64,000 nucleotides of DNA, taken from assembly GCF_003403315.2 (NCBI RefSeq), contig NZ_CP048407.1:186001-250000 (forward strand), read 5' to 3'. The notes beneath the pieces were generated by a model. That model was not told the origin of the DNA, searched no databases, and saw nothing but the letters and a program-made list of their open reading frames with translations. Both the position numbers and the translations under genes were made by a program. Shown here one piece after another: positions 6,084 to 50,900 of the stretch. How positions within the stretch are numbered: the first letter of the stretch is position 1; each line of letters begins with the position of its first letter. Origin of the DNA: Thermaerobacter sp. PB12/4term. GTDB lineage: Bacteria; Bacillota; Sulfobacillia; Thermaerobacterales; Thermaerobacteraceae.

Positions 6084-6359
6084 CCGCTTGTCCTTGAGGG
6101 AGGCCGGACCTGTACCTTCACCGGCTGCGAACCCGAAGAACCGCCGGGGCCGGCCACCGCGCCCGCCGGTTCGGCCGGCGGCCGGCCCCAGCGCCGCCGT
6201 TCCTGCACCCGGGGCCGCCCCCCGCGCCTGGTGGCCCTGACCCGGCAACCGCCCCGCCACCCCGGCCCCGCCGCCCCGGAGCCGCCCCCTGACCCGCTGT
6301 CCCGCACCAGCCGGTTGCCGGCCCCGGCCCGGGCCTGCCGGTGGGGCCGTCGGGCGATG

Positions 6360-6368
6360 TGCTATCCT
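6360..6368 (+). promoter_or_regulatory. Extended -10 promoter element upstream of ctpA
   Basis: TGCTATCCT (TG-N-TATCCT) stands out in a GC-rich gap about 180 nt before ctpA. No convincing -35 is present. A near-identical TGCTATCAT lies before uvrC, which supports its use as a promoter. Confidence 0.45.
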
Positions 6369-6551
6369 GAATTGAGTGAATCGAGATGGCCCTGCTGGCG
6401 TGACCCCGCCGGCCCTGGCCCTGCCGGCGAGGCCTTCGGGTACGCATCCGGGGGCTTCGCTCTCCGTCCCTCGACAGTGCGGGCGGAACGGCCGGGGGCA
6501 TAGGCTGGTGGAGGCACGAGCCTCGCACCGGCTGGGAGGATCGGAACCACG

Positions 6552-7928
6552 ATGACGTCCTTCGGCCATTCCTTCGACACCGGACCGGCCGGGCGGGAGG
6601 GGGACCGCCCGGTCTTGACCTTGCGCCAGGCGCTGGCCGGCGCGCTGATCCTGGTCGTCCTGACGGCGGTGGTGACCCTGGCCGTCTCCGACCGGGTGGA
6701 AGGCTTCTGGCTCCGCCTCTTCCCCCAGAGCGTGGCCCTCACCGATGCCGAAAAGCAGCAGCTGCTGGACGAGCTGGTGCGCTCGCCCAACTTCGACCGG
6801 TTCCTCACGGTGTTTCAACTGGTGAGGAACCAGTACGTCGACCCGCTGCCTGTGGACCAGCTGCTGGAAGGAGCCACCCGGGGGGTGGTCGAGGCCACGG
6901 GGGATCCCTTCTCCGCCTATTTCGATCCGCAGGAGTTTCGCGAGTTCCAGATCGACGTATCGGGCCACTACAGCGGGATCGGCGTGGTGGTGTCGGAGGG
7001 GAAGGATGGTGGCGTGGTCGTCCAGACCCCCTTCGAAGGCTCGCCGGGAGCCACCACGCCCTTCGAGGGAGCGGGACCGGACGATCCCGTGGGCCTGCGG
7101 CCGGGGGACGTGATCATCAGCGTCGACGGGCAGGACGTCACCGGGGAGAGCGTGGAGGCGGTGGCCCGGCGCATCCGCGGGCCCGAGGGAACCCAGGTCA
7201 CCCTGGAGGTGCTGCGGGAGGGCTATGACAAGCCGCTGAAGTTCGTCCTGACGCGCCGCAACATCGACGTGCCGTCGGTCCAGGCCCACATGCTGGACGG
7301 GAAGATCGGCTACATCCACCTGACCCAGTTCCTGCCCGATACCCCCGACGACTTCGATGCAGCGCTGGACGAGCTGCGCCGGCAGGGCATGCAGGGTCTC
7401 ATCCTGGACCTGCGCAACAACCCCGGGGGCGAGCTCCAGGCGGTGGTGCGCATCGCGGACCGGCTCCTGCCCCGGGGGCCCATCGTCCACATCGAGTACC
7501 GCCATCGCGGCCGGGAGACCCACTCTTCCGACGCCGGGGCCCTGGGCCTGCCGCTGGCGGTCCTGGTCAACCAGGGCAGCGCCAGTGCCTCGGAGATCCT
7601 GGCGGGTGCCATCCAGGATTACGGCGTCGGGGTGCTGGTGGGCGAGCACACCTTCGGCAAAGGCACCGTGCAGACGGTGTGGCCGCTGGACGGCAAAGGC
7701 CGGGCCGGCCTGGGCCGGCGGGGGGAAGAGGGGGCGGGCGTCAAGCTGACCGTGGCCCGTTACCTGACACCGAAGGAACGACCCATCGTCATGGGCAAGG
7801 GGATCGAGCCCGACGTGCACGTGCCCTTCGACCTGGAAAACCTGGAGGGGATGGGCGACCTGCGCCGCGACCCGCAGCTCCGGGCAGCCTACCAGCGGGT
7901 TGAGCAGATGGTCGCCGGCGGCGCATGA
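6552..7928 (+). CDS. ctpA: S41 family C-terminal processing peptidase (CtpA/CtpB-like)
   Basis: Membrane-anchored serine protease, 458 residues. It has one N-terminal membrane segment (residues 22-45), an N-terminal helical region, a PDZ domain near residues 135-225 (PGDVIISVDGQDV) and the S41 protease core. The catalytic serine lies in GSASASEI (near residue 344) and the catalytic lysine in FGKGTVQ (near 370), the Ser/Lys dyad of the family. ATG 6552 is preceded by GGAGG. In Bacillus the homologue CtpB (YvjB) lies in the same neighbourhood and acts in regulated proteolysis during sporulation; whether this organism sporulates cannot be told here. It overlaps the next gene by 4 nt (ATGA). Confidence 0.92.
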   Translation: MTSFGHSFDTGPAGREGDRPVLTLRQALAGALILVVLTAVVTLAVSDRVEGFWLRLFPQSVALTDAEKQQLLDELVRSPNFDRFLTVFQLVRNQYVDPLPVDQLLEGATRGVVEATGDPFSAYFDPQEFREFQIDVSGHYSGIGVVVSEGKDGGVVVQTPFEGSPGATTPFEGAGPDDPVGLRPGDVIISVDGQDVTGESVEAVARRIRGPEGTQVTLEVLREGYDKPLKFVLTRRNIDVPSVQAHMLDGKIGYIHLTQFLPDTPDDFDAALDELRRQGMQGLILDLRNNPGGELQAVVRIADRLLPRGPIVHIEYRHRGRETHSSDAGALGLPLAVLVNQGSASASEILAGAIQDYGVGVLVGEHTFGKGTVQTVWPLDGKGRAGLGRRGEEGAGVKLTVARYLTPKERPIVMGKGIEPDVHVPFDLENLEGMGDLRRDPQLRAAYQRVEQMVAGGA

Positions 7929-9199
7929 AGGGGTCTCTCGAGCTCTGGGGATTGCCTCTCGGGGAGCTGGCCCGGCTGCTGGCCGCCGACACCCTGCCGG
8001 CGGCCCTTCTCAACCCGGGCACGGCGCCCCTCTTCCTCCTGGTCCTGGGGTTGGTGGCCTTTCAGTACGCCCGCATCGGGCAGATGGAAGCTCGGCTCTA
8101 CGGCCGCCCGCTGGTGCCGTTGTGGCACCGGGTGCTGACGGCCATCGCGGCGGGCTTGCTGGGCGGATTCATCGGAGGGCTGGTGATCACGGCGGCCGGC
8201 GTGGTGCTCGAGCCCCGGGACGTCACCCCGCTGTGGCCCGTGGCGCTGGGGCTGGCGCTCATCCGGCCGCGCTTCCTTTGCTTTGCCTACGCCACCGGGT
8301 TGATCGGGGCCAGCCACCTGCTGCTGGGGTGGCCCCAGGTCCATGTGCCGGGACTGGTGGCCCTGGTGGGGGCGTTGCACCTGGCCGAGGCCGTGCTGGT
8401 ATACGTCGACGGGGCCGAGGGGGCCACGCCGGTCCTGGCGCGCAACGGTCGCGGCGAGGTGGTGGGCGGGTTCCTCCTGCAGCGGTTCTGGCCGGTGCCG
8501 GCGGCCATCCTGGTGCTGGTCAACCTGACGGCGCCGGGCGGTGGCATCGAGATGCCCTCCTGGTGGCCGCTGGTCGGACCCGCCGATCCTGCGCGGTTGA
8601 ACGCTGCGGGCTGGATCGTGGTCGCTCTGCCCCTCGTAGCGGGCCTTGGCTACTCCGACCTGGCCCTGACGGCCACCCCGGGCACCCGCTCCCGCCAAAC
8701 GGCTCTGGTGATGGTCCTGTACAGCGCCGCCCTGGTGGCCATGGCGGCTCTGGCGGAGCGGGACGCCCGGTGGCTGTGGCCGGCCGTCCTGGCGTCGCCG
8801 CTCCTGCACGAAGGAATGATCCAGCTGGGAATTGCCCGCGAGCGGTGGGGGCGCCCCCTCTTTGGCCCGCCCGCCCAGGGGGCCCGGGTGCTCTGGGTCT
8901 GGCCGCGGTCGCCGGCAGCGGCGCTGGGCTTGCAAGCGGGCGACGTGATCCTCACGGCCAACGGGCGGCCGGTGCGCAGGGAGAGCGATCTGCGGGCCGT
9001 GTCCATGGACCTGTGGGAGGGGCCGCTGCGGGTCTTCGACCTGGAGCTCGAGATCCAGCGAGGCAACCGGCGCCTGACCCGTCGGCTGCAGCGTTTCGAC
9101 CCCGGGGCACCCTTCGGGGCGCTGCTGGTGCCCCCGCCGGGGGATCCGGTGTCGCCGCTGATCGACCTGGGCCGTGGCAAACACTTGTTTGGCGCTTGA
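7925..9199 (+). CDS. Polytopic membrane protein with C-terminal PDZ domain (MinJ/YvjD-like)
   Basis: A 424-residue protein with about eight hydrophobic segments up to residue 310 and a PDZ domain near residues 315-390 ([19 protein letters not shown]). It overlaps ctpA by 4 nt. In Bacillus subtilis the gene between ctpB and uvrB is minJ (yvjD), which bridges DivIVA and MinD in division-site selection. The architecture and position match, so a topological role in division is likely. Sequence similarity beyond the PDZ fold cannot be judged by eye, and no minCD or divIVA lies in the window. Confidence 0.7.
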
Positions 9200-28584: not shown

Positions 28585-29723
28585 GCTCCTTGCTCCGGAG
28601 ATGACGCCCCCCGGCCCGTGCCGTCCCAGGCCTCCGCCGGAACGTCCCGGGCCCCGGGGGCACCCGGGTCGCCGGCGGCCAGGGCCGCCTGCAGGGCGGC
28701 CCGCATGGCGGCCAGGGGGGCGGGCCGGTTCGTCCAGAGTTCAAAGGCGGCGGCCCCCTGGTGCAGCAGCATGCCCAGGCCGCCGATGGCCCGGGCGCCG
28801 GCCGCCGCCGCCCGGGCCAGGAAGGGGGTGACGGCCGGCCGGTAGACCAGGTCGTAATACACCTGGCCGGGCAGGGGGCGGCAGGTAGCCGGCAGCGGGT
28901 CCACCCCCAGCTGGGGCGCCATGCCGGCGCTGGTGGCGTTGACCACCAGCAGGCAGCCGGCGGCCACCTCCGGCAGGGCCGGGTCGTCTAAGGAGAGGGC
29001 TTCCACGGGCGCCTCCACGGGCGCCGGATCCAGGGAAGCCTCGCAACCTTGATCCCGTGCGCCGGCGGGCCTCCCCGGTTGCGGGGACTGGCCCCCGTCG
29101 CCGGACCCGGCCGGGCCCGCGATCCCGTGCCGGGGGTGGGGCCGGGCCGGAGGCCCGCCGGCTGCGCCCGGATCCACGGGCGCCTGCGCCAGCTCCCGGG
29201 CCAGCGCCCGGGCCCGAGCGGCCGTCCGGTTGGCGATCACCACGGCCATGCCGGCTTCCAGCAGGGCGAAGGCCACGGCCCGGGCGGCACCGCCGGCTCC
29301 CAGGACCAGGGCCCGCCGGCCGGCTAGGCGGCCGGCGGGGAGGCCGTGCTCCTCCAGATCCCGGAGGAACCCGGTCCCGTCGGTGTTGTACCCCACCAGC
29401 GCCCCGCCGTCCTCCCGCACCACGGTGTTGACGGCGCCGATGCGGCGAGCGGCGGGATCGAGCCGGTCCAGCAGGGCGAGGGCGGCTTCCTTGTGGGGGA
29501 TGGTCAGGTTGACCCCGGCCCAGCGGGGATCGGCCCGCACCTGGGCCAGGGCGGCCTCCAGGTCCCCGGGCGGCACGTCCCAGGCCTGGTACGACCAGGG
29601 CAGGCCCGCCGCCCGGAAGGCGGCAGACTGCAGGGCGGGCGAGAGGCTGTGGCCGATGGGATGGCCCAGGACCGCCAGCCGCCGCGGCGGCGGCGAGCCG
29701 GGGGTGGCCGGGGGGCGGCTCAT
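28581..29723 (-). CDS. aroE: Shikimate dehydrogenase with internal insertion
   Basis: NADPH-dependent reduction of 3-dehydroshikimate to shikimate. Motifs present are PIGHSLSP (substrate binding), [10 protein letters not shown] with the catalytic Lys, NTDGTGF, the nucleotide-binding GAGGAARAV and NRT. At 380 residues it is about 100 longer than typical. Residues 181-240 are a Gly/Pro/Ala-rich insertion directly after the [15 protein letters not shown] helix, where the cofactor domain would be interrupted on its surface, and the tail is low-complexity. ATG 29723 overlaps the aroA stop (ATGA). Confidence 0.94.
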
Positions 29724-31492
29724 GCCGGTTCATCCCCCGCGGCCGGGGCCGGCAGGGAGCCGGGTGCCGCACCTGCACCGCCTGCTTCCAGGGAAACCAA
29801 GCCTGCCCCCAGGGTCACCGGGCTTGCCGGCTGGGGCTCCGGGCTCCCCGGCAGGCCTTCCGGACCCTCCACGGGAGCGCCCAGCCGGCGGAGGTTGCTG
29901 AAGAAGCCAGGGTCCGACACGGCGGCGCTGGCGGCGCCGGTGATCACCGTCTCGCCGGCCGCCACCAGCCCGGCCACGGCCAGGGCCATGGCCATGCGGT
30001 GGTCGCCCCGGGAAGAGACCACGGCGCCCCGCAAGGGGGTGGGGCCGTGGATGTCCAGGCCGCCGGGGTGCTCGTCCACCCGGGCGCCCAGCCGCCGCAG
30101 TTCCTCGGCGATGGCCGTGAGGCGATCGGTTTCCTTGACCCGCAGTTCCGCGGCGTCGCGGATGCGGGTGGTGCCCCGGGCCTGGGTGGCCAGCACCGCC
30201 AGGATGGGGATCTCGTCGATCAGCCGGGGGATCAGGTCGCCGCCCACGTCCACGGCCCGCAGCTCGGAGGTTTCGGCGGTGAGGTCCGCCACCGGCTCGC
30301 CCGGCCCGCCGGCCGTTGCGGAAGAACCGGCGGGCCCTCGGGGAACGCGGCCGGGGGCCGGGCGGCCTCCGTCCCCCGCTCCCCGGGCCGGCCGGCCCGG
30401 CCCCGCCGGGTCGCCGGCGGGACCGGCGCCGGGCTGCAGTTCCCGCACGGCCTTCACCCGCACCCGGGCGCCCATGGCCTGCAGCACCTCCAGGAACCCC
30501 GCCCGGGTGGGGTTGACCCCCACTCCCTGCAGGGTGATCCGGCTACCCGGGCAAAGGAGGGCGGCGGCCAGGTAGAAGGCGGCCGCCGACGGGTCGCCGG
30601 GGATGGCCAGCCGGGCCGGGGCGGCCAGGACCTGGCCGCCGTCGACGGCGACCAGCAGCCCGTCCCGCTCCACGGCGACGCCGAAGAGGGGCAGCAGCCG
30701 CTCGGTGTGATCGCGGGAGAGGGCGGGCTCGCGGACGCTGGTTCGTCCCGCGGCAAACAGCCCTGCCAGCAGGATGGCGCTCTTGACCTGGGCGCTGGCC
30801 ACGGGGCTGTCGTGGTGGATGGCCCTGAGGTCCCCGCCCCGGATGGTCAGGGGGGCCCGGCGGCCGCCCTCCCGGCCGCTGATCAGGGCGCCCATGCGGC
30901 GCAGGGGCTCGACCACCCGGTCCATGGGCCGCCGGCACAGGGAGGCATCCCCGGTCAAGGTGGCGGTGAAGGGGCGGGATGCCAGCAGCCCCAGCAAAAG
31001 GCGCATGGTGGTGCCCGAGTTGCCCGCGTCCAGGGGAGCTGCGGGAGCCTGCCAGCCGGCGATGCCCGGCCCCTCCAGCACCACCTGGTGGGGCGCCGGA
31101 CGCCGCACCGTGACCCCCAGGGCGGCAAGGCACGCCAGGGTCGAGGCAGCGTCCCGCCCCGGCGCGTAATGGTCCAGGACGACCCGGCCCCCGGCGGCGG
31201 CGGCCAGCAGGGCCGCCCGGTGGGCGATGGACTTGTCCCCCGGCACCGGCAGCGTGCCGCCCAGATCCCGGGCGGGCCGCACCCGTACCAGGCCGGAGTC
31301 CAGGGCGGGGTCGCCGGCGGCCGGTTCCGGGGCCGCCCCGGGGATCCCGGCTGGTTTGGTGGCTGCGGCCGGGGCAGGAGCGCCGGCGGGTCCGGGCGCC
31401 GCTCCGGGCAGGGCATCTCCAGGCGCTCCGCCCGCCCGGCGGTGCCGGCGATTGGATTCAGGTTCAGGCGTTGGGCAGTGCACGGGCGTCAC
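29720..31492 (-). CDS. aroA: 3-phosphoshikimate 1-carboxyvinyltransferase (EPSP synthase)
   Basis: Transfers enolpyruvyl from PEP to shikimate 3-phosphate. The core begins near residue 67 and shows PGDKSIAHRAALLAA, LDAGNSGTTMRLLLG, SAQVKSAILLAGL and the late block RVKETDRLTAIAEELRRLGA with GDHRMAMALAVAG. The SIAHR form places the enzyme with class II-like EPSP synthases, which tend to be glyphosate-tolerant (inference). The first 66 residues are a Pro/Ala tail, and about 50 extra Gly/Pro residues are inserted near residues 350-400. The start is GTG 31492, overlapping tyrA by 4 nt. Confidence 0.95.
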   Translation of the reverse strand: MTPVHCPTPEPESNRRHRRAGGAPGDALPGAAPGPAGAPAPAAATKPAGIPGAAPEPAAGDPALDSGLVRVRPARDLGGTLPVPGDKSIAHRAALLAAAAGGRVVLDHYAPGRDAASTLACLAALGVTVRRPAPHQVVLEGPGIAGWQAPAAPLDAGNSGTTMRLLLGLLASRPFTATLTGDASLCRRPMDRVVEPLRRMGALISGREGGRRAPLTIRGGDLRAIHHDSPVASAQVKSAILLAGLFAAGRTSVREPALSRDHTERLLPLFGVAVERDGLLVAVDGGQVLAAPARLAIPGDPSAAAFYLAAALLCPGSRITLQGVGVNPTRAGFLEVLQAMGARVRVKAVRELQPGAGPAGDPAGPGRPARGAGDGGRPAPGRVPRGPAGSSATAGGPGEPVADLTAETSELRAVDVGGDLIPRLIDEIPILAVLATQARGTTRIRDAAELRVKETDRLTAIAEELRRLGARVDEHPGGLDIHGPTPLRGAVVSSRGDHRMAMALAVAGLVAAGETVITGAASAAVSDPGFFSNLRRLGAPVEGPEGLPGSPEPQPASPVTLGAGLVSLEAGGAGAAPGSLPAPAAGDEPA

Positions 31493-32631
31493 CCATCCTC
31501 GCTGGAGCCTGGCCGGGCGGTCTCCGCGGGCGGCCCGGGCCGGCGCAGGATGGCCTCCCGGAAGCGGCGGGCCGCGTCCAGGTAGCGGAAGAGGGGATCG
31601 CCCCCTTCGCCCCCCTGGGCCAGCCCGGTGAAGTCTCCCCCTCCGGCGCCGGTCCCCCCGGCGCGGCCTTCCGGCCCCGCCGGTCCTTCTCCGGGCCCGG
31701 CGGGGACCACCGCCCGGGCCAGCCGGTCAAGTTCTTCCTTCAGAACCTCGAGCCACGGGGCCAGATGGACCCAGTTGGCGCGCAGCATGTCCCGCCCCAG
31801 CACGGGGTGGCCGCCGGCCACCCGGGTGGTGTCGCGAAAGCCGCCGGCCACCAGGCCGGCCAGGTGGGGGAGGCTTCCGGCGCCCCGGCGGGCGGTGCCT
31901 GCCAGGGCGGCGGCCACCAGCAGGGGCAGGTGGCTGGCCAGGGCCACGTGCCGGTCGTGATCCACGGGATCCATCAGGAGGACCCGGGCACCGGCGGCCT
32001 CCAGCAGCGGGATCCAGGGCCGGGCCGCCCCTTCGCCCCAGGGGGCGGCGGGGGTGAGGACCCAGGTGCACCCCCGGAAGAGCCCGGGATCAGCCGCGGC
32101 GGCGCCCCACCGCTCGGTGCCGGCCATGGGGTGGCCACCCACAAAAGCCACCTGGGCGGGCAAGTGCTGCCGGGCGGCGGCCACCACCGGCCCCTTGACG
32201 CTGCCGGTGTCGGTGAGCAGCACTCCCGGCCGCAGGAAGGGCCGGGCCTGCTCCAGCACCGCCGGCATGGCGCCCAGGGGCACGGCCAGCACCACGGCAT
32301 CGGCCTCTCTGAGCAGGTCCAACCCGGCGGACGAACCGGCGTCGACCCACCCGGCCGCCAGGGCGTGGTCCAAGGCGGCCGGATCCCGGTCGAACCCCAG
32401 CACCCTGCCCACCAGGGGGCGGACGGCGGCGGCCAGGGAGCCGCCGATCTGGCCCAGGCCGACCACGGCCAAAACGCGCCCCCGCCAGCGCTCCAGCCGG
32501 TCGCCGCCCGGACGGCCGCCCGGCTCGGAGGCCGGAACGGGCCCGCCCCGTCCCGGCCCTGGCAACGGATTAGGAAGCCTCCGGGATTCGAAGGCGGGGC
32601 CGCAGGCCGGGCCGGGGGCCTCGGGGCACAC
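31489..32631 (-). CDS. tyrA: Prephenate dehydrogenase
   Basis: NAD(P)-dependent oxidative decarboxylation of prephenate to 4-hydroxyphenylpyruvate on the tyrosine branch. The Rossmann motif VVGLGQIGGSLA lies near residue 55. The family's DTGSVKG and GGHPMAGTERWG blocks carry the substrate-binding His, and a helical C-terminal domain follows. No ACT domain is visible, so tyrosine feedback by that route is not expected. The first 48 residues are low-complexity. GTG 32631 lies 3 nt after the aroF stop; this is the only early junction in the operon without overlap. Confidence 0.92.
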   Translation of the reverse strand: MCPEAPGPACGPAFESRRLPNPLPGPGRGGPVPASEPGGRPGGDRLERWRGRVLAVVGLGQIGGSLAAAVRPLVGRVLGFDRDPAALDHALAAGWVDAGSSAGLDLLREADAVVLAVPLGAMPAVLEQARPFLRPGVLLTDTGSVKGPVVAAARQHLPAQVAFVGGHPMAGTERWGAAAADPGLFRGCTWVLTPAAPWGEGAARPWIPLLEAAGARVLLMDPVDHDRHVALASHLPLLVAAALAGTARRGAGSLPHLAGLVAGGFRDTTRVAGGHPVLGRDMLRANWVHLAPWLEVLKEELDRLARAVVPAGPGEGPAGPEGRAGGTGAGGGDFTGLAQGGEGGDPLFRYLDAARRFREAILRRPGPPAETARPGSSEDG

Positions 32632-32634
32632 CGG

Positions 32635-33858
32635 TCAGTTGCCCCCACCGGCGGCGGCCCGCCTCGGGGAGGGTGCCGCCGCCACCGCAGCCGGCGCGAC
32701 CGGTACGTCCGGCTCGCCGGGGCGGGGCAGGCCGGGTTGGGCGTCGCCCCGGCCTTCGCGGCCGGCGCCCGCCCGTCCTTCCCGACCTGCCCCGGTGACG
32801 GCCCCGTCACGGGCCGCCTGCCGGCCGGGTTCGTCCCCGTGGCGGAACAGCCGGCGGCCGAGGGCCCGGGCCACGGCTTCGACCTCTTCCACCAGCTGCT
32901 GGAACTGGGCGAAGTCCAGGCTCTGGTTGCCGTCGGACAGGGCCTGGTCGGGCCGCGGGTGCACCTCCACGATCAGCCCGTCGGCCCCCGCGGCGACGGC
33001 CGCCCGGGCCAGGGGGATCACGTACTCCCGGTGACCGGTGCCGTGGCTGGGATCGACGATCACCGGCAGGTGGGTCAGGCTCTTGGCCACGGCCACGGCG
33101 TTGAGGTCCAGGGTGTTGCGGGTCGACGTTTCGAAGGTGCGGATGCCGCGCTCGCAGAGGATCACGTGGGGATTGCCCTCGGCCAGGATGTATTCGGCCG
33201 CCAGCAGCCACTCTTCCACCGTGGCCATGAAGCCCCGCTTGAGGAGCACCGGCTTGCGGGTCCGGCCCACCGCCTGCAGCAAGGGGAAGTTCTGCATGTT
33301 GCGGGCGCCGATCTGGAGGACGTCGGCGTAGGCAGCCACCTGCTCCACCTGCTCGGGGGCCATCACCTCGGTCACCACGGGCAGGCCCGTCACCTGCCGG
33401 GCCTGCGCCAGCAGCCGCAGGCCCTCCTGGCCAAGACCCTGAAAGCTGTAGGGGGAGGTACGGGGCTTGAAGGCACCGCCGCGCAGGGCCGCGCCCCCGG
33501 CCCGCCGGAGGAACCCGGCGATCTCCAGCAGCCCGGCCTCGCTCTCCACGGAGCAGGGGCCGGCGATGATGGGGACCGCATCGCCGCCGAAGGGCACGCC
33601 GCCCGCAGTCACCACCGTCGGCTCGGGGCGGAACTCCCGGCTGGCCAGCTTGTAGGGCCGGCTGACGGTGACCACCCTCTCCACCCCCCGCAGGGTCTCC
33701 ACCTGCTGGCCGTCCAGGGCGCGGGGATTGCCGTGGCCGTGGATCACCACCCGCTCGTCGCCCTGGGCCACGTAGGGCCGCAGCCCCGCCTGGCGGAGGC
33801 GCTCCTTGACCTGCTCGACGTCGTCAGGTGTGGCGTGGGGATGCATGATGACGATCAC
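32635..33858 (-). CDS. aroF: 3-deoxy-7-phosphoheptulonate (DAHP) synthase, type I-beta with N-terminal regulatory domain
   Basis: First enzyme of the shikimate pathway, condensing PEP and erythrose 4-phosphate. Residues 1-75 form a ferredoxin-like ACT-type domain ([17 protein letters not shown]), as in Thermotoga DAHP synthase, where it mediates feedback inhibition by aromatic amino acids. The barrel carries [50 protein letters not shown] and DPSHGTG. The last 55 residues are Gly/Ala/Arg-rich. Translation probably begins at GTG 33858, overlapping the aroH stop (GTGA); ATG 33846 is possible. Confidence 0.95.
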
Positions 33859-34280
33859 CCTCGATTCCCTCCCGCCAGGGCCTGGGCGACGGCCAGGCCG
33901 TCCAGGACTCCGCCGGGTTGCCAGGTGGCCAGGTCGGGCCGCAGGCAGCGGGCCTGGCCCAGGTAGACGTGCCGGATCTCCCGGGGCGACCGGTCGGTGT
34001 TCACCAGCACCAGGGCCCGGATGCAGCGGGGCAGGTCATCGTCCACCGGCGGCGCCATGGCGTCCAGCAGCGGGACGTGGGTCCAGCCCAGCTCCCGCAC
34101 CGCGGAAGCGGGGAAGGCACGGTCCAGGTCCCGGGTCACCGTGAAGAACACCGCAACAATATCATCGACTGAAGCTTCATTCAGCGCAACCATGGCCTGC
34201 AAGAGCTCGCGGGTCGCCCGGCGGATCGCCTCGGGACTGTTGTCCTCGGCGACTACGGCACCCCGTATCCCGCGCACCAT
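33855..34280 (-). CDS. aroH: Monofunctional chorismate mutase, AroH type
   Basis: Rearranges chorismate to prephenate. The 141-residue protein aligns along its whole length with the trimeric pseudo-barrel AroH family: [18 protein letters not shown] at the start, [27 protein letters not shown] with [11 protein letters not shown], and the C-terminal HVYLGQA segment carrying the substrate-contacting Tyr. ATG 34280 follows GGGAGGGAAGG. It is the first gene of the aro operon, just behind the leader terminator. Confidence 0.95.
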
Positions 34281-34322
34281 CCTTCCCTCCTTGCCCGGCC
34301 CCTGCGCAGCGAGGACAGAAAG

Positions 34323-34344
34323 GAAAAAGCCACCGAAGGGTGGC
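34323..34344 (-). terminator. Intrinsic terminator inside the aro leader
   Basis: On the minus strand GCCACC pairs with GGTGGC around a CTTC loop, followed by TTTTT. It lies between the operon promoter and the first gene, so unregulated termination would silence the operon; it therefore looks like an attenuator. Confidence 0.8.
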
Positions 34345-34358
34345 GGGAGGAATCCGCC

Positions 34359-34451
34359 CCTACCGTCCTGCCGTTCTACGCAGCGGCTGCCGATGGATTT
34401 GAAAAGGAGTCGGGAACCGGCCGCGTCCTACCGTGAAGCCTGCCGTCCTGC
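34359..34451 (-). promoter_or_regulatory. Two repeated NAG-triplet clusters in the aro leader (putative HutP-like protein sites)
   Basis: On the transcript, site I (34451-34427) reads CAG-N5-CAG-N9-TAG and site II (34379-34359) reads TAG-N5-CAG-N5-TAG. Four copies of ACGG(C/T)AGG are shared between them. HutP of Bacillus subtilis is known to bind two leader sites built of UAG triplets; from memory its spacers are 4 nt, here they are 5 (one is 9). The repeat is seen directly; the binding partner is inference. Confidence 0.55.
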
Positions 34452-34479
34452 ACCGGCTGCGGCCGGTTGTTATTCGCGA

Positions 34480-34508
34480 ATTATACAAGGCGCCCGGGCG
34501 TCCGGCAA
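34480..34508 (-). promoter_or_regulatory. Sigma-A-type promoter of the aro operon
   Basis: On the minus strand TTGCCG (34508-34503), a 17-nt spacer and a perfect TATAAT (34485-34480). It is the best consensus promoter in the window and points at aroH. A 10-bp palindrome ATTCGCGAAT (34472-34481) overlaps the end of the -10 and could be an operator. Confidence 0.8.
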
Positions 34509-34637
34509 GACCTTGTAGCGCTGGTCGGCAAGGCCGGCGGGTTGCCGAGGCCCGCGGGTTGCCAGGGTCCGCGGAGCAGGTAGCGGGTGCCGCCGCCGGA
34601 TCCGCCGGACCGCCGCCGGTCACGGCAGACCCGCCGG

Positions 34638-35087
34638 TCACGCCGGACCGCTGCGGGGCGCCACGTCAGGCACGGCCCGGTGGGCCAGGCCCACGGCCAC
34701 GTCGTCCAGGTGCACCAGGCCCACCCCCACGAAGACGGCACAGGCCAGGTGCTCCCCCAGCCGGGCGATGGCCACCTTGCCGCCCACGTTGAAACCTAGC
34801 GCCCGGCCCGCCAGCTGGGCCAGCGCTTCCCTGGCCGCCCCGGCCACCGCCCCCTCGTGGGGGTGGATGGGTGCGATGACGCCCTCGCGCCGGGCGGCGA
34901 CGATGGCCCTCTGCACCATGCTGCCGATGGACTCCACGTACGGTCCGCCGAAGTCCACCGCCACGCCCCGGATGCCCTGGCGCAGGAGCTCGTCCTTGAT
35001 CCGGCCCTCGTCGCTGCGGGTAGCCGAGGTGGCCAGCCGCAGGGCGGCCCGCGCCACCGCCAGGTTGGGACCTTCCGCTTGGGTCAT
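34638..35087 (-). CDS. HutP-family RNA-binding antiterminator-like protein
   Basis: A 149-residue protein matching HutP (151 or fewer residues) along its length. A central block IGSMVQRAIVAARREGVI corresponds to the HutP helix before its ligand region, and the C-terminus has a VHLDDVAVGLAH segment resembling the HutP GLEH...GVGINH end. HutP is a hexamer that binds histidine and Mg2+, then leader RNA, and prevents termination. Metal-binding His residues of Bacillus HutP do not align exactly (an HPHEG motif is nearby), so the ligand may differ. No histidine-utilisation gene is present; the next gene downstream is the aro operon. ATG 35087 follows CGGAAGGA. Confidence 0.72.
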   Translation of the reverse strand: MTQAEGPNLAVARAALRLATSATRSDEGRIKDELLRQGIRGVAVDFGGPYVESIGSMVQRAIVAARREGVIAPIHPHEGAVAGAAREALAQLAGRALGFNVGGKVAIARLGEHLACAVFVGVGLVHLDDVAVGLAHRAVPDVAPRSGPA

Positions 35088-35151: not shown

Positions 35152-36597
35152 CTATGCCTTCGGCCGGCCCGGCGAGCTTCCCTGTCGGGCCGGGTCCTCT
35201 CCCCTGGGAGAGGAGGCCGGTCCGGCCACCAGCCGCCAGCGGGCTCCCGCCTGGACCGGGTAGAGCTGCACCGCCCACCAGCCCAGCCGCCCCAGGTCGC
35301 GGGCGACCCGGCGGGCCGCGCCGCCGTCGCCCGCTCCCGCAGGAGCCAGCCACAGGGCCCAAACGGGCCAGGCCACGTGCCAGGCAGGCCAGGCGGGGGG
35401 GCTTCCGGGCCCGCCGGGGTCCCAGCCCAGCTGCCGCAGCGCGGCCTCCAGCCGCTCGCCGGCCGTTGCCACCGCCGGCGGGACCAGCCCCTGGTCCCGG
35501 ACGAACCGGCCCAGGGCCGCAGCCTCCCGCAGCAAGGCGGCCAGGACCCGGTCGGGATCGCCGGCGGCAGCTGCGGGCCGGCCGCCGCCCCCCGCCGGGC
35601 CCGTCTCCGGCCCCGGTGCTCCCCCCGTGGGGCGGCGGGGGCGCGGGTCGGTGGGAAGGTCGGCGGGCAGCCGGCGGCGCCAGCCCGCCAGCCAGCGGGC
35701 TTCCCGCTCCAGGACCCGGACCAGGACGGGGTCGGGGCCCTGGGACCAGCGGGCAGCCCAGCACCACTCCGGCGGCGGCGGCAGGTCCGGCCAGGTGTCA
35801 TCCGGCCGGGAAGCTGCCGCGGGAAGGGGGCCGGCCAGCAGCAAGCCCCGGGTCAGGGGTTCAAGCCAGCCGGCGGGCAGGGCGGCAAAGGCCCGAGCCC
35901 GTCCGGCCGCCAGGGGTGACGGCCAGCCCCCCTCGTCTCCCGGGGGTGGTCCGGAGGGGGCGCCGGTCCCGGCCCCTTCAGCGGGGTGCCCCGCCAGGCC
36001 GCCCGTGCCCGCGCCCCCGGCCGGCCCGCTTCCGGCCACCCGGCCTCCTGGCCTTCCCCCTGCGTCCCCGGCGACCGGGGCCGGGCCGGGCGGGCCCAGA
36101 CCCGCGACGAAGCCCAGGTCCGGCGGTGGACCGGCCCAGCGCAGCCCGCCCAGGGCCATGGCCACCGCCCGTGGCCAGGCACCCAGGGCCAGCGCCGCCT
36201 CCCGGGCCAGGGCCAGGACGGCGGGCGGGGGGCCGGGGTGAAGGGCGACGTCCTCCAGCAGCTGGCCCATTCGTTCCCGCAGCGGGTCCGCAGGAAGGAA
36301 CGGGCCCTTGCCCGCTTCGGGACCCGCCCCACGGGCGGCGCCGGGGCGGCGGCAGGGGCGGGGCGCCACCGCCAGGCCGAGCCCCAGGGGAGGAGGGCCG
36401 GGCAGGTCCGCGGGGACTGCGGCCCGCCCTCCTGCCAGCCACAGGGGTAAGGCCCCCAGCACATGACCGCCCAGGAGGATAGCGCCGGGCACCCGGGGTA
36501 CGGCCGTCATGGCCAGGCCGGGGGCAGGCGGGTCCCCCTGGCGGGCGGGCCTGTTCGTCCCGGCAGGGTAAGGGCCGGCGTCCGGTCCGCAGGTCAC
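35152..36597 (-). CDS. Protein of unknown function between mgtE and hutP-like gene
   Basis: I do not recognise this 481-residue frame. It starts at GTG 36597, 14 nt after mgtE, with AGGGGGCC upstream; ATG 36510 is an alternative. The N-terminus has a mildly hydrophobic stretch (AILLGGHVLGALPLWLAGG). The middle is Ala/Gly/Pro-rich, and the C-terminal third is Trp/Arg/Leu-rich with helical character (LEREARWLAGWRRRLPADL; RVARDLGRLGWWAVQLYPV). Position and direction favour it as a real gene, but an open frame also exists on the opposite strand, as is common at this G+C. The last gene of the unit, hutP-like, begins 64 nt downstream. Confidence 0.5.
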   Translation of the reverse strand: MTCGPDAGPYPAGTNRPARQGDPPAPGLAMTAVPRVPGAILLGGHVLGALPLWLAGGRAAVPADLPGPPPLGLGLAVAPRPCRRPGAARGAGPEAGKGPFLPADPLRERMGQLLEDVALHPGPPPAVLALAREAALALGAWPRAVAMALGGLRWAGPPPDLGFVAGLGPPGPAPVAGDAGGRPGGRVAGSGPAGGAGTGGLAGHPAEGAGTGAPSGPPPGDEGGWPSPLAAGRARAFAALPAGWLEPLTRGLLLAGPLPAAASRPDDTWPDLPPPPEWCWAARWSQGPDPVLVRVLEREARWLAGWRRRLPADLPTDPRPRRPTGGAPGPETGPAGGGGRPAAAAGDPDRVLAALLREAAALGRFVRDQGLVPPAVATAGERLEAALRQLGWDPGGPGSPPAWPAWHVAWPVWALWLAPAGAGDGGAARRVARDLGRLGWWAVQLYPVQAGARWRLVAGPASSPRGEDPARQGSSPGRPKA

Positions 36598-50423: not shown

Positions 50424-50740
50424 GGGGTGCCTGGAACAGGGCGGTGCCCAGGAGGGTTGCTCGACCCAGCACCGGGTCGCCGGCCAGGCACCCCCGGTCA
50501 AAGGGGGCGCAGGGCACCGGGGAGCGCGCGGCGGCACGGCCGGCGCCGGTGTCCCGGGGGAGGGGGTGAGGTCCGAGGGCCGGCGGCGGCAGGAGCCGGT
50601 AGCCGGTAAGGCGGAAGCCGATCCGAACGCCGCCCATGGGGAAAGGGAGCCGCGAGGTGCGGCCGTCACGGACCGTCCGGTAGCGGGTTCGTCGCGGTGC
50701 ACCATGAGGGTTTGCCAGGACAAACCGAAAGCAGGAACGG

Positions 50741-50900
50741 AGCCTGCTAGCGCCAGGACTCGCCGGCGGCAGGCCGGCGAGTTGACGAGGACCGGGCGTA
50801 TCGAAGGTTTCGGCGGATCGCCCGGCGGTTGGCCACGACCGTGAGCGGCCCGGCAAAACCCGGGAGCGATCCCGGGGACAAGACGGGCCAGGTGGCGCGA
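50741..50900 (+). ncRNA. glmS self-cleaving ribozyme (glucosamine-6-phosphate sensor)
   Basis: The conserved core is readable in order. The cleavage site is A/GCGCC, with the cut between 50749 and 50750. Then come hairpin CGCCGGC/GCCGGCG, GTTGACGAGG (50781-50790), TATCGAA (50799-50805) and TTTCGGCGGAT (50808-50818), enclosed by stem CCGGGCG/CGCCCGG. The P4 hairpin CCCGGGA/TCCCGGG (50859-50876) and ACAAGA close it. Glucosamine 6-phosphate acts as cofactor for cleavage, and the 5'-OH product is degraded, lowering GlmS. About 390 nt separate the core from the glmS start; that stretch (50901-51288) holds no other recognisable element. Confidence 0.92.

Follow-up and report, generated by a model that had tools for sequence, protein, structure and literature searches.

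The locus described here lies in a 64,000-nt stretch of the Thermaerobacter sp. PB12/4term genome, which we call the window. On its minus strand a gene for a HutP-like protein is followed, after a gap of 357 nt, by aroH, aroF, tyrA and aroA (Table 1). The gap holds a promoter that matches the consensus at 10 of 12 positions and is the sole promoter-like site of the region (mean of 0.1 in shuffles), and then a leader with two clusters of NAG triplets, 49 nt apart, and an intrinsic terminator. This is the architecture that a sequence-only reading had described, and each of its parts was recovered: the HutP-like gene just 5' of the leader on the same strand, the TTGCCG-N17-TATAAT promoter, two related triplet clusters, the terminator just before aroH and, when counted, four copies of ACGG(C/T)AGG. 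The spacing is also as given there, 5 nt with one spacer of 9 nt, and the 5-nt spacing is conserved across the phylum.

Table 1. Features of the hutP-aro locus, in window coordinates.
Feature	Position	Strand	Remarks
HutP-like gene, 149 aa	34638..35087	-	PF09021, E = 1.2e-40; aro-type clade
-35 hexamer TTGCCG	34503..34508	-	promoter spans 34480-34508
-10 hexamer TATAAT	34480..34485	-	
Stem 5' arm AACCGGCCGC around cluster I	34459..34468	-	perfect complement of 34415-34424; predicted fold
NAG cluster I, CAG-GACGG-CAG-GCTTCACGG-TAG	34428..34450	-	CAG-N5-CAG-N9-TAG
Stem 3' arm GCGGCCGGTT around cluster I	34415..34424	-	predicted fold
NAG cluster II, TAG-AACGG-CAG-GACGG-TAG	34360..34378	-	TAG-N5-CAG-N5-TAG; conserved period-8 element
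Antiterminator 5' strand AGGGGCGG	34354..34361	-	overlaps last triplet; duplex -10.2 kcal/mol
Antiterminator 3' strand CCGCCACCCTT	34336..34346	-	overlaps terminator 5' arm
Intrinsic terminator GCCACC-CTTC-GGTGGC-TTTTT	34324..34344	-	15 nt beyond cluster II
aroH, chorismate mutase type I	33855..34280	-	PF07736; start at 34280
aroF, DAHP synthase	32635..33858	-	PF00793 + PF18152
tyrA, prephenate dehydrogenase	31489..32631	-	PF02153 + PF20463
aroA, EPSP synthase	29720..31492	-	PF00275

The window contains the cluster II pattern a single time, and 100 dinucleotide shuffles do not contain it at all; the ACGGYAGG 8-mer is a weak signal when taken alone (14 in the window against 6.1 expected). The stem that encloses cluster I is predicted from the window leader alone, with no implication of conservation, and minimum-free-energy folding of the whole leader was uninformative (z = -0.39). 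No Rfam family matched the window leader, the T-box family RF00230 included, and none matched 20 loci carrying the conserved element. Elsewhere in the window, at 50738-50900 on the plus strand, a glmS ribozyme/riboswitch exceeds the Rfam cut-off.

The HutP-like protein matches the Pfam profile PF09021 over its full length (positions 1-128 of 128), and its gene is the single PF09021 copy of its genome. A phmmer search with this one protein found nothing among PDB sequences at E 0.001; the relationship to HutP was recovered by profile comparison and fold comparison, where phmmer had failed. The AlphaFold model (pLDDT 88.5) matches HutP structures, with Z 16.7 to 1vea and Z 7.5 to the next unrelated fold. 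Profiles of aro-type and hut-type HutP proteins align with E = 5.6e-6 at 21% identity. We class the window protein as a member of the HutP fold family and not as a HutP ortholog. Between hutP and mgtE lies a 481-aa ORF rich in Ala, Pro and Gly (35152-36597, minus strand) that has no Pfam match; its position is kept in the near relatives G001-G004, and its sequence diverges fast.

In a tree of 74 HutP sequences, the aro-type clade takes 61 rows (support 98). The hut-type clade (support 99) takes in the B. subtilis and Geobacillus structures, and its genes adjoin hutH and hutU in hutH-hutP-hutU or hutP-hutU clusters. The window protein is placed outside the hut clade and its neighbours are aro, not hut, genes. 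Had the gene kept company with hut genes elsewhere and not with aro, the earlier reading would have been refuted; instead this clade occurs with aro genes and a different clade with hut. PF09021 was found in 256 of 398 sampled Bacillota genomes, and all of the best-scoring 30 copies for which loci were returned (30/30) fall in the aro clade. A third clade (support 81; genes in L053, L054, L056 and L061) stands alongside pyrimidine-catabolism-like genes, with neighbours that encode a dihydropyrimidine dehydrogenase domain, a carbon-nitrogen hydrolase, a class III aminotransferase, an amidohydrolase, a CoA transferase and an amidase, and it possibly represents another HutP regulon.

The near relatives G001-G004 keep the leader, often with GTAGAACGGTAGGACGGTAG as the sequence of cluster II. 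Even in G048, which belongs to another family and has an AroH only 40% identical, the leader is still GTAGTGCGGTAGCGCGGTAGGG, followed by a different terminator. Compared across relatives, then, the NAG clusters are conserved. In G001 an IS-like insertion separates hutP from the leader and spares the promoter, both clusters and the terminator, suggesting that the leader forms a transcription unit of its own. The insertion (about 7590-8870 of locus L045) contains a transposase-like ORF (7670-8779, minus strand).

An element with triplets every 8 nt, GTAGNNCGGTAGNNCGGTAG, recurs across Bacillota, and it tracks HutP. Searching 154 genomes of the class for GTAGNNCGGTAGNNCGGTAG with at most one mismatch gave 22 genomes, 19 of them HutP-positive as against 35 of the 154 overall; every one of the 13 exact-match genomes is HutP-positive. 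In the phylum sample of 398 genomes the element is present in 55, and 54 of these are HutP-positive compared with 256 overall (Fisher p = 1e-10; HutP-positive here means PF09021, all three clades together). The reversed control pattern, in a tally read off the table, occurs in about 31 genomes, 19 of them HutP-positive, and shows no HutP bias (p = 0.70). A minority of matches (G174, G447, G526 and G210) are likely chance or repeat matches, and patterns with two mismatches are mostly noise; a single-sequence search of genome contigs for related loci had returned 5 loci only. In six genomes (G024, G025, G029, G032, G044 and G050) the element stands before aroH-aroF-tyrA-aroA though hutP is not adjacent. 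Three genomes with aro-type HutP (G058, G018 and G041) have no element at the aroF copies examined.

Two further occurrences deserve mention. The window's genome contains an intergenic tandem 8-mer repeat, GTAGCAAG, in about five copies (L227, about 1025-1085; G000:C1:1806035), with NAG at period 8 and without CGG. In G022 an exact element (L101, about 6300-6375; G022:C19:6355-6374, minus strand) follows directly on a tRNA-like stretch and lies immediately 5' of a Shine-Dalgarno-like sequence and a 93-aa ORF.

The genes 3' of the element are mostly aromatic. Across the phylum, aroF, aroH or tyrA comes first in about half of the loci. Other targets are pheA (prephenate dehydratase), a relative of tryptophanase and tyrosine phenol-lyase, and TrpX-type tryptophan ABC binding proteins, the last often directly after hutP; iorA (indolepyruvate oxidoreductase), paaK (phenylacetate-CoA ligase) and transporters of the TRAP, SSF or NhaC types also occur. 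In three loci (L195 of G241, L196 of G191 and L217 of G253) the element precedes hutP-aroH itself, suggesting autoregulation. Clade membership and element conservation together support the proposal of the sequence-only reading that this HutP homologue would be dedicated to aromatic genes through NAG clusters in leaders.

The same operon has a second kind of leader. Upstream of aroF, the HutP-positive genomes G022, G026, G042, G056, G076 and G097 carry high-scoring elements, some of them degenerate, and the HutP-negative genomes G012, G028 and G037 carry T-box leaders. In the HutP-positive G018 and G041, aroF copies without the element carry T-boxes. Because T-boxes stand at aroF where the element is absent, the two devices appear interchangeable at the aroF operon. 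They share a position and probably a purpose; T-boxes, however, read uncharged tRNA and need no protein, and no Rfam family matches the HutP leaders.

What would the element do? Complementarity between the third-triplet window and the terminator's 5' arm plus loop was measured in 47 terminator-bearing leaders. The true pairings score better than permuted pairings (z = -4.2, p < 1e-4), most strongly at the third triplet. When each of 31 families contributes a single leader, z is near -3 (p 0.0004-0.005), and control windows placed over the first triplet or 25 nt upstream show no significant complementarity. The antiterminator covaries from family to family (p about 0.001). The antiterminator helix can be seen in the G025 leader, where GGUAGGGG at the third triplet faces CCCCUACC (pairing GGUAGGGG:CCCCUACU), in G260 (GGUAGGGG:CUCCUACC) and in G265 (GGUAGGAG:CUCUUACC). 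The changes in G321 (GCAGGGA:UCCUUGC, UAG to CAG) and in G209 (UGUAGG:UCUACA, CGG to CUG) look compensatory. About half of the leaders show strong pairing; in others it is weak. A nascent-fold test with swapped arms gave a modest result (29 of 47 against 21.7) and is weak; the duplex permutation test carries the mechanistic argument.

In the window the competing pair is AGGGGcGG:CCaCCCUU, whose energy was computed on the identical stretch of L045, and the nascent RNA folds into an overlapping GGGGCGG:CCGCCaCC stem. With the six triplets barred from pairing, the terminator's predicted probability climbs from about 0.79 to 0.99. Antiterminator and terminator use the same strand and are therefore mutually exclusive, and a protein seated on the triplets keeps the antiterminator from forming, so that HutP binding should favour termination. 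Terminator-less leaders carry the element close to the start codon, and in L203, L218 and L219 it abuts or overlaps the ribosome-binding site. Both arrangements predict repression when HutP binds. A second, upstream cluster is present in 20 of the 47 leaders (0.6 expected from mononucleotide shuffles); two clusters per leader would suit a hexamer with two RNA faces.

We propose, with a probability of roughly 65%, that aro-type HutP proteins, a separate clade within the HutP fold, control aromatic amino-acid genes through RNA attenuation. Some aromatic amino acid, or a metabolite close to it, would load the protein when abundant, and the loaded protein would attach to the nascent leader's NAG triplets in the way that HutP does in hut. 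Bound HutP would cover the last triplet, otherwise paired with the terminator 5' arm and loop; the terminator would form and aroH-aroF-tyrA-aroA would be off. In the absence of ligand the antiterminator helix would form and RNA polymerase would read through. In leaders that lack a terminator, HutP bound near the ribosome-binding site would block translation. The computed support consists of the HutP fold, the conserved element, its co-occurrence with HutP, the aromatic regulon and the mutually exclusive helices; RNA binding, the identity of the effector and the direction of control are what we infer, and for the last of these covariation and folding favour repression. Several observations count against the proposal. 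The antiterminator pairing is uneven among the leaders, and the nascent-fold test gave only a modest difference. The iorA, paaK and tryptophanase-relative targets look catabolic, and repression by an amino acid is less expected there. Moreover, the three genomes noted above have aro-type HutP and no element at the examined aroF copies, two of which have T-boxes.

Besides T-boxes, two known systems come closest. TRAP (MtrB), which attenuates trp genes and also serves an amino-acid regulon, binds NAG triplets that overlap the antiterminator; its binding favours the terminator or else blocks a ribosome-binding site. In the leaders studied here, the window's included, the triplets likewise overlap an antiterminator that competes with the terminator. 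The aro-type protein is nevertheless unrelated to TRAP, having the HutP fold, and a TRAP leader has about eleven NAG triplets with 2-3-nt spacers whereas the window leader has three plus three with 5-nt spacers and one of 9 nt. With B. subtilis HutP the aro-type proteins share the fold, by distant homology, and with the hut leader a pair of NAG clusters, three triplets each, that lie at an intrinsic terminator or ahead of it. The differences are a separate clade at about 21% identity, the loss of H73 and H77, a triplet period of 8 rather than the 7 of the hut leader, and aromatic targets for which termination is predicted to be promoted and not prevented. The two clusters before the hut terminator (PMC7430163) are reported to lie 20 nt apart, against 49 nt in the window. 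Near the hut-type HutPs of this class, no NAG triplets of period 7 were found.

The predicted direction of control sets our proposal against the earlier reading, in which a HutP paralogue would control the shikimate/tyrosine operon by antitermination. Its assignment of an aromatic-gene role is supported. Its antitermination is not supported, since the third triplet lies in a covarying antiterminator helix and binding and read-through exclude each other. Activation of aro as in hut, by a HutP that prevents terminator formation, perhaps with an aromatic effector, could draw on the HutP fold with two NAG clusters before a terminator (PMC7430163) and on the catabolic-looking or transporter targets, which are often induced by amino acids. 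It is unlikely all the same: forbidding triplet pairing stabilises the window terminator, terminator-less leaders have the element close to the start codon, and an end product that induced its own biosynthetic operon would be illogical.

The effector itself can be approached through the ligand-binding residues. H73 and H77 of B. subtilis HutP, which with H138 are ligands of the metal and of L-histidine, are replaced by Gly in the aro clade (hhalign), and H138 apparently by Leu in a hand alignment only; HxxxH is kept in the other HutP clades. Since H73 and H77 are gone, the effector of aro-type HutP is probably not histidine, and the target genes suggest an aromatic amino acid instead, so that the earlier guess of a non-histidine effector now looks probable. 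We consider it very unlikely that histidine is still the signal for aro-type HutP, which would then tie aromatic synthesis to the supply of histidine. Histidine and aromatic pathways do share precursors, and the studied PF09021 member senses histidine with Mg2+ (PMC7430163). The targets, however, are aromatic and neither his nor hut, and the host's urocanase gene lies 550 kb away (L226 and L228, G000:C1:760000-775000), with no NAG triplets of period 7 or 8 found in the 15 kb around it. The genome has no hut-type HutP despite that gene.

Less probable again is that some other factor, either TRAP-like or a DNA-binding repressor, recognises the element, with HutP a mere neighbour. The TRAP signal also consists of NAG triplets, and genes controlled by TRAP or T-boxes resemble this regulon. 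Yet the element tracks HutP where hutP is not adjacent (G024, G025, G029, G032 and G050), the covariation of the helix indicates RNA, and clusters of three NAG triplets are a known target of HutP (PMC7430163). That the repeats arose by chance in a leader rich in GC, a thought encouraged by the common ACGGYAGG and by period-8 repeats in some unrelated genomes (G447, G526), is ruled out by the co-occurrence of element and HutP, and the empty shuffles and the conservation before the same operon in many families agree.

HutP is usually regarded as a single-purpose antiterminator of B. subtilis, and a search of the open-access literature, outside which most subscription papers lie, found no published link between HutP and aromatic genes. 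Aro-type HutP is probably a regulator that binds the RNA of aromatic amino-acid genes, widespread in Bacillota and so far overlooked. We think it somewhat better than an even bet that the commonest HutP branch of the phylum is an aromatic-sensing RNA attenuation protein and not a histidine-utilisation regulator: by way of NAG triplets that also serve as antiterminator, it would repress genes for synthesis and transport, as a convergent HutP-fold counterpart of TRAP, and would replace T-boxes at the same operon. If so, one overlooked family would control aromatic amino-acid genes in many Clostridia and their relatives, many such genes would gain a regulator, and PF09021 genes now named as hut regulators would be misnamed. 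It would also provide a clean case of one RNA-binding fold put to opposite logic with a different ligand, and of a protein attenuator taking the place of T-box control in one and the same operon.
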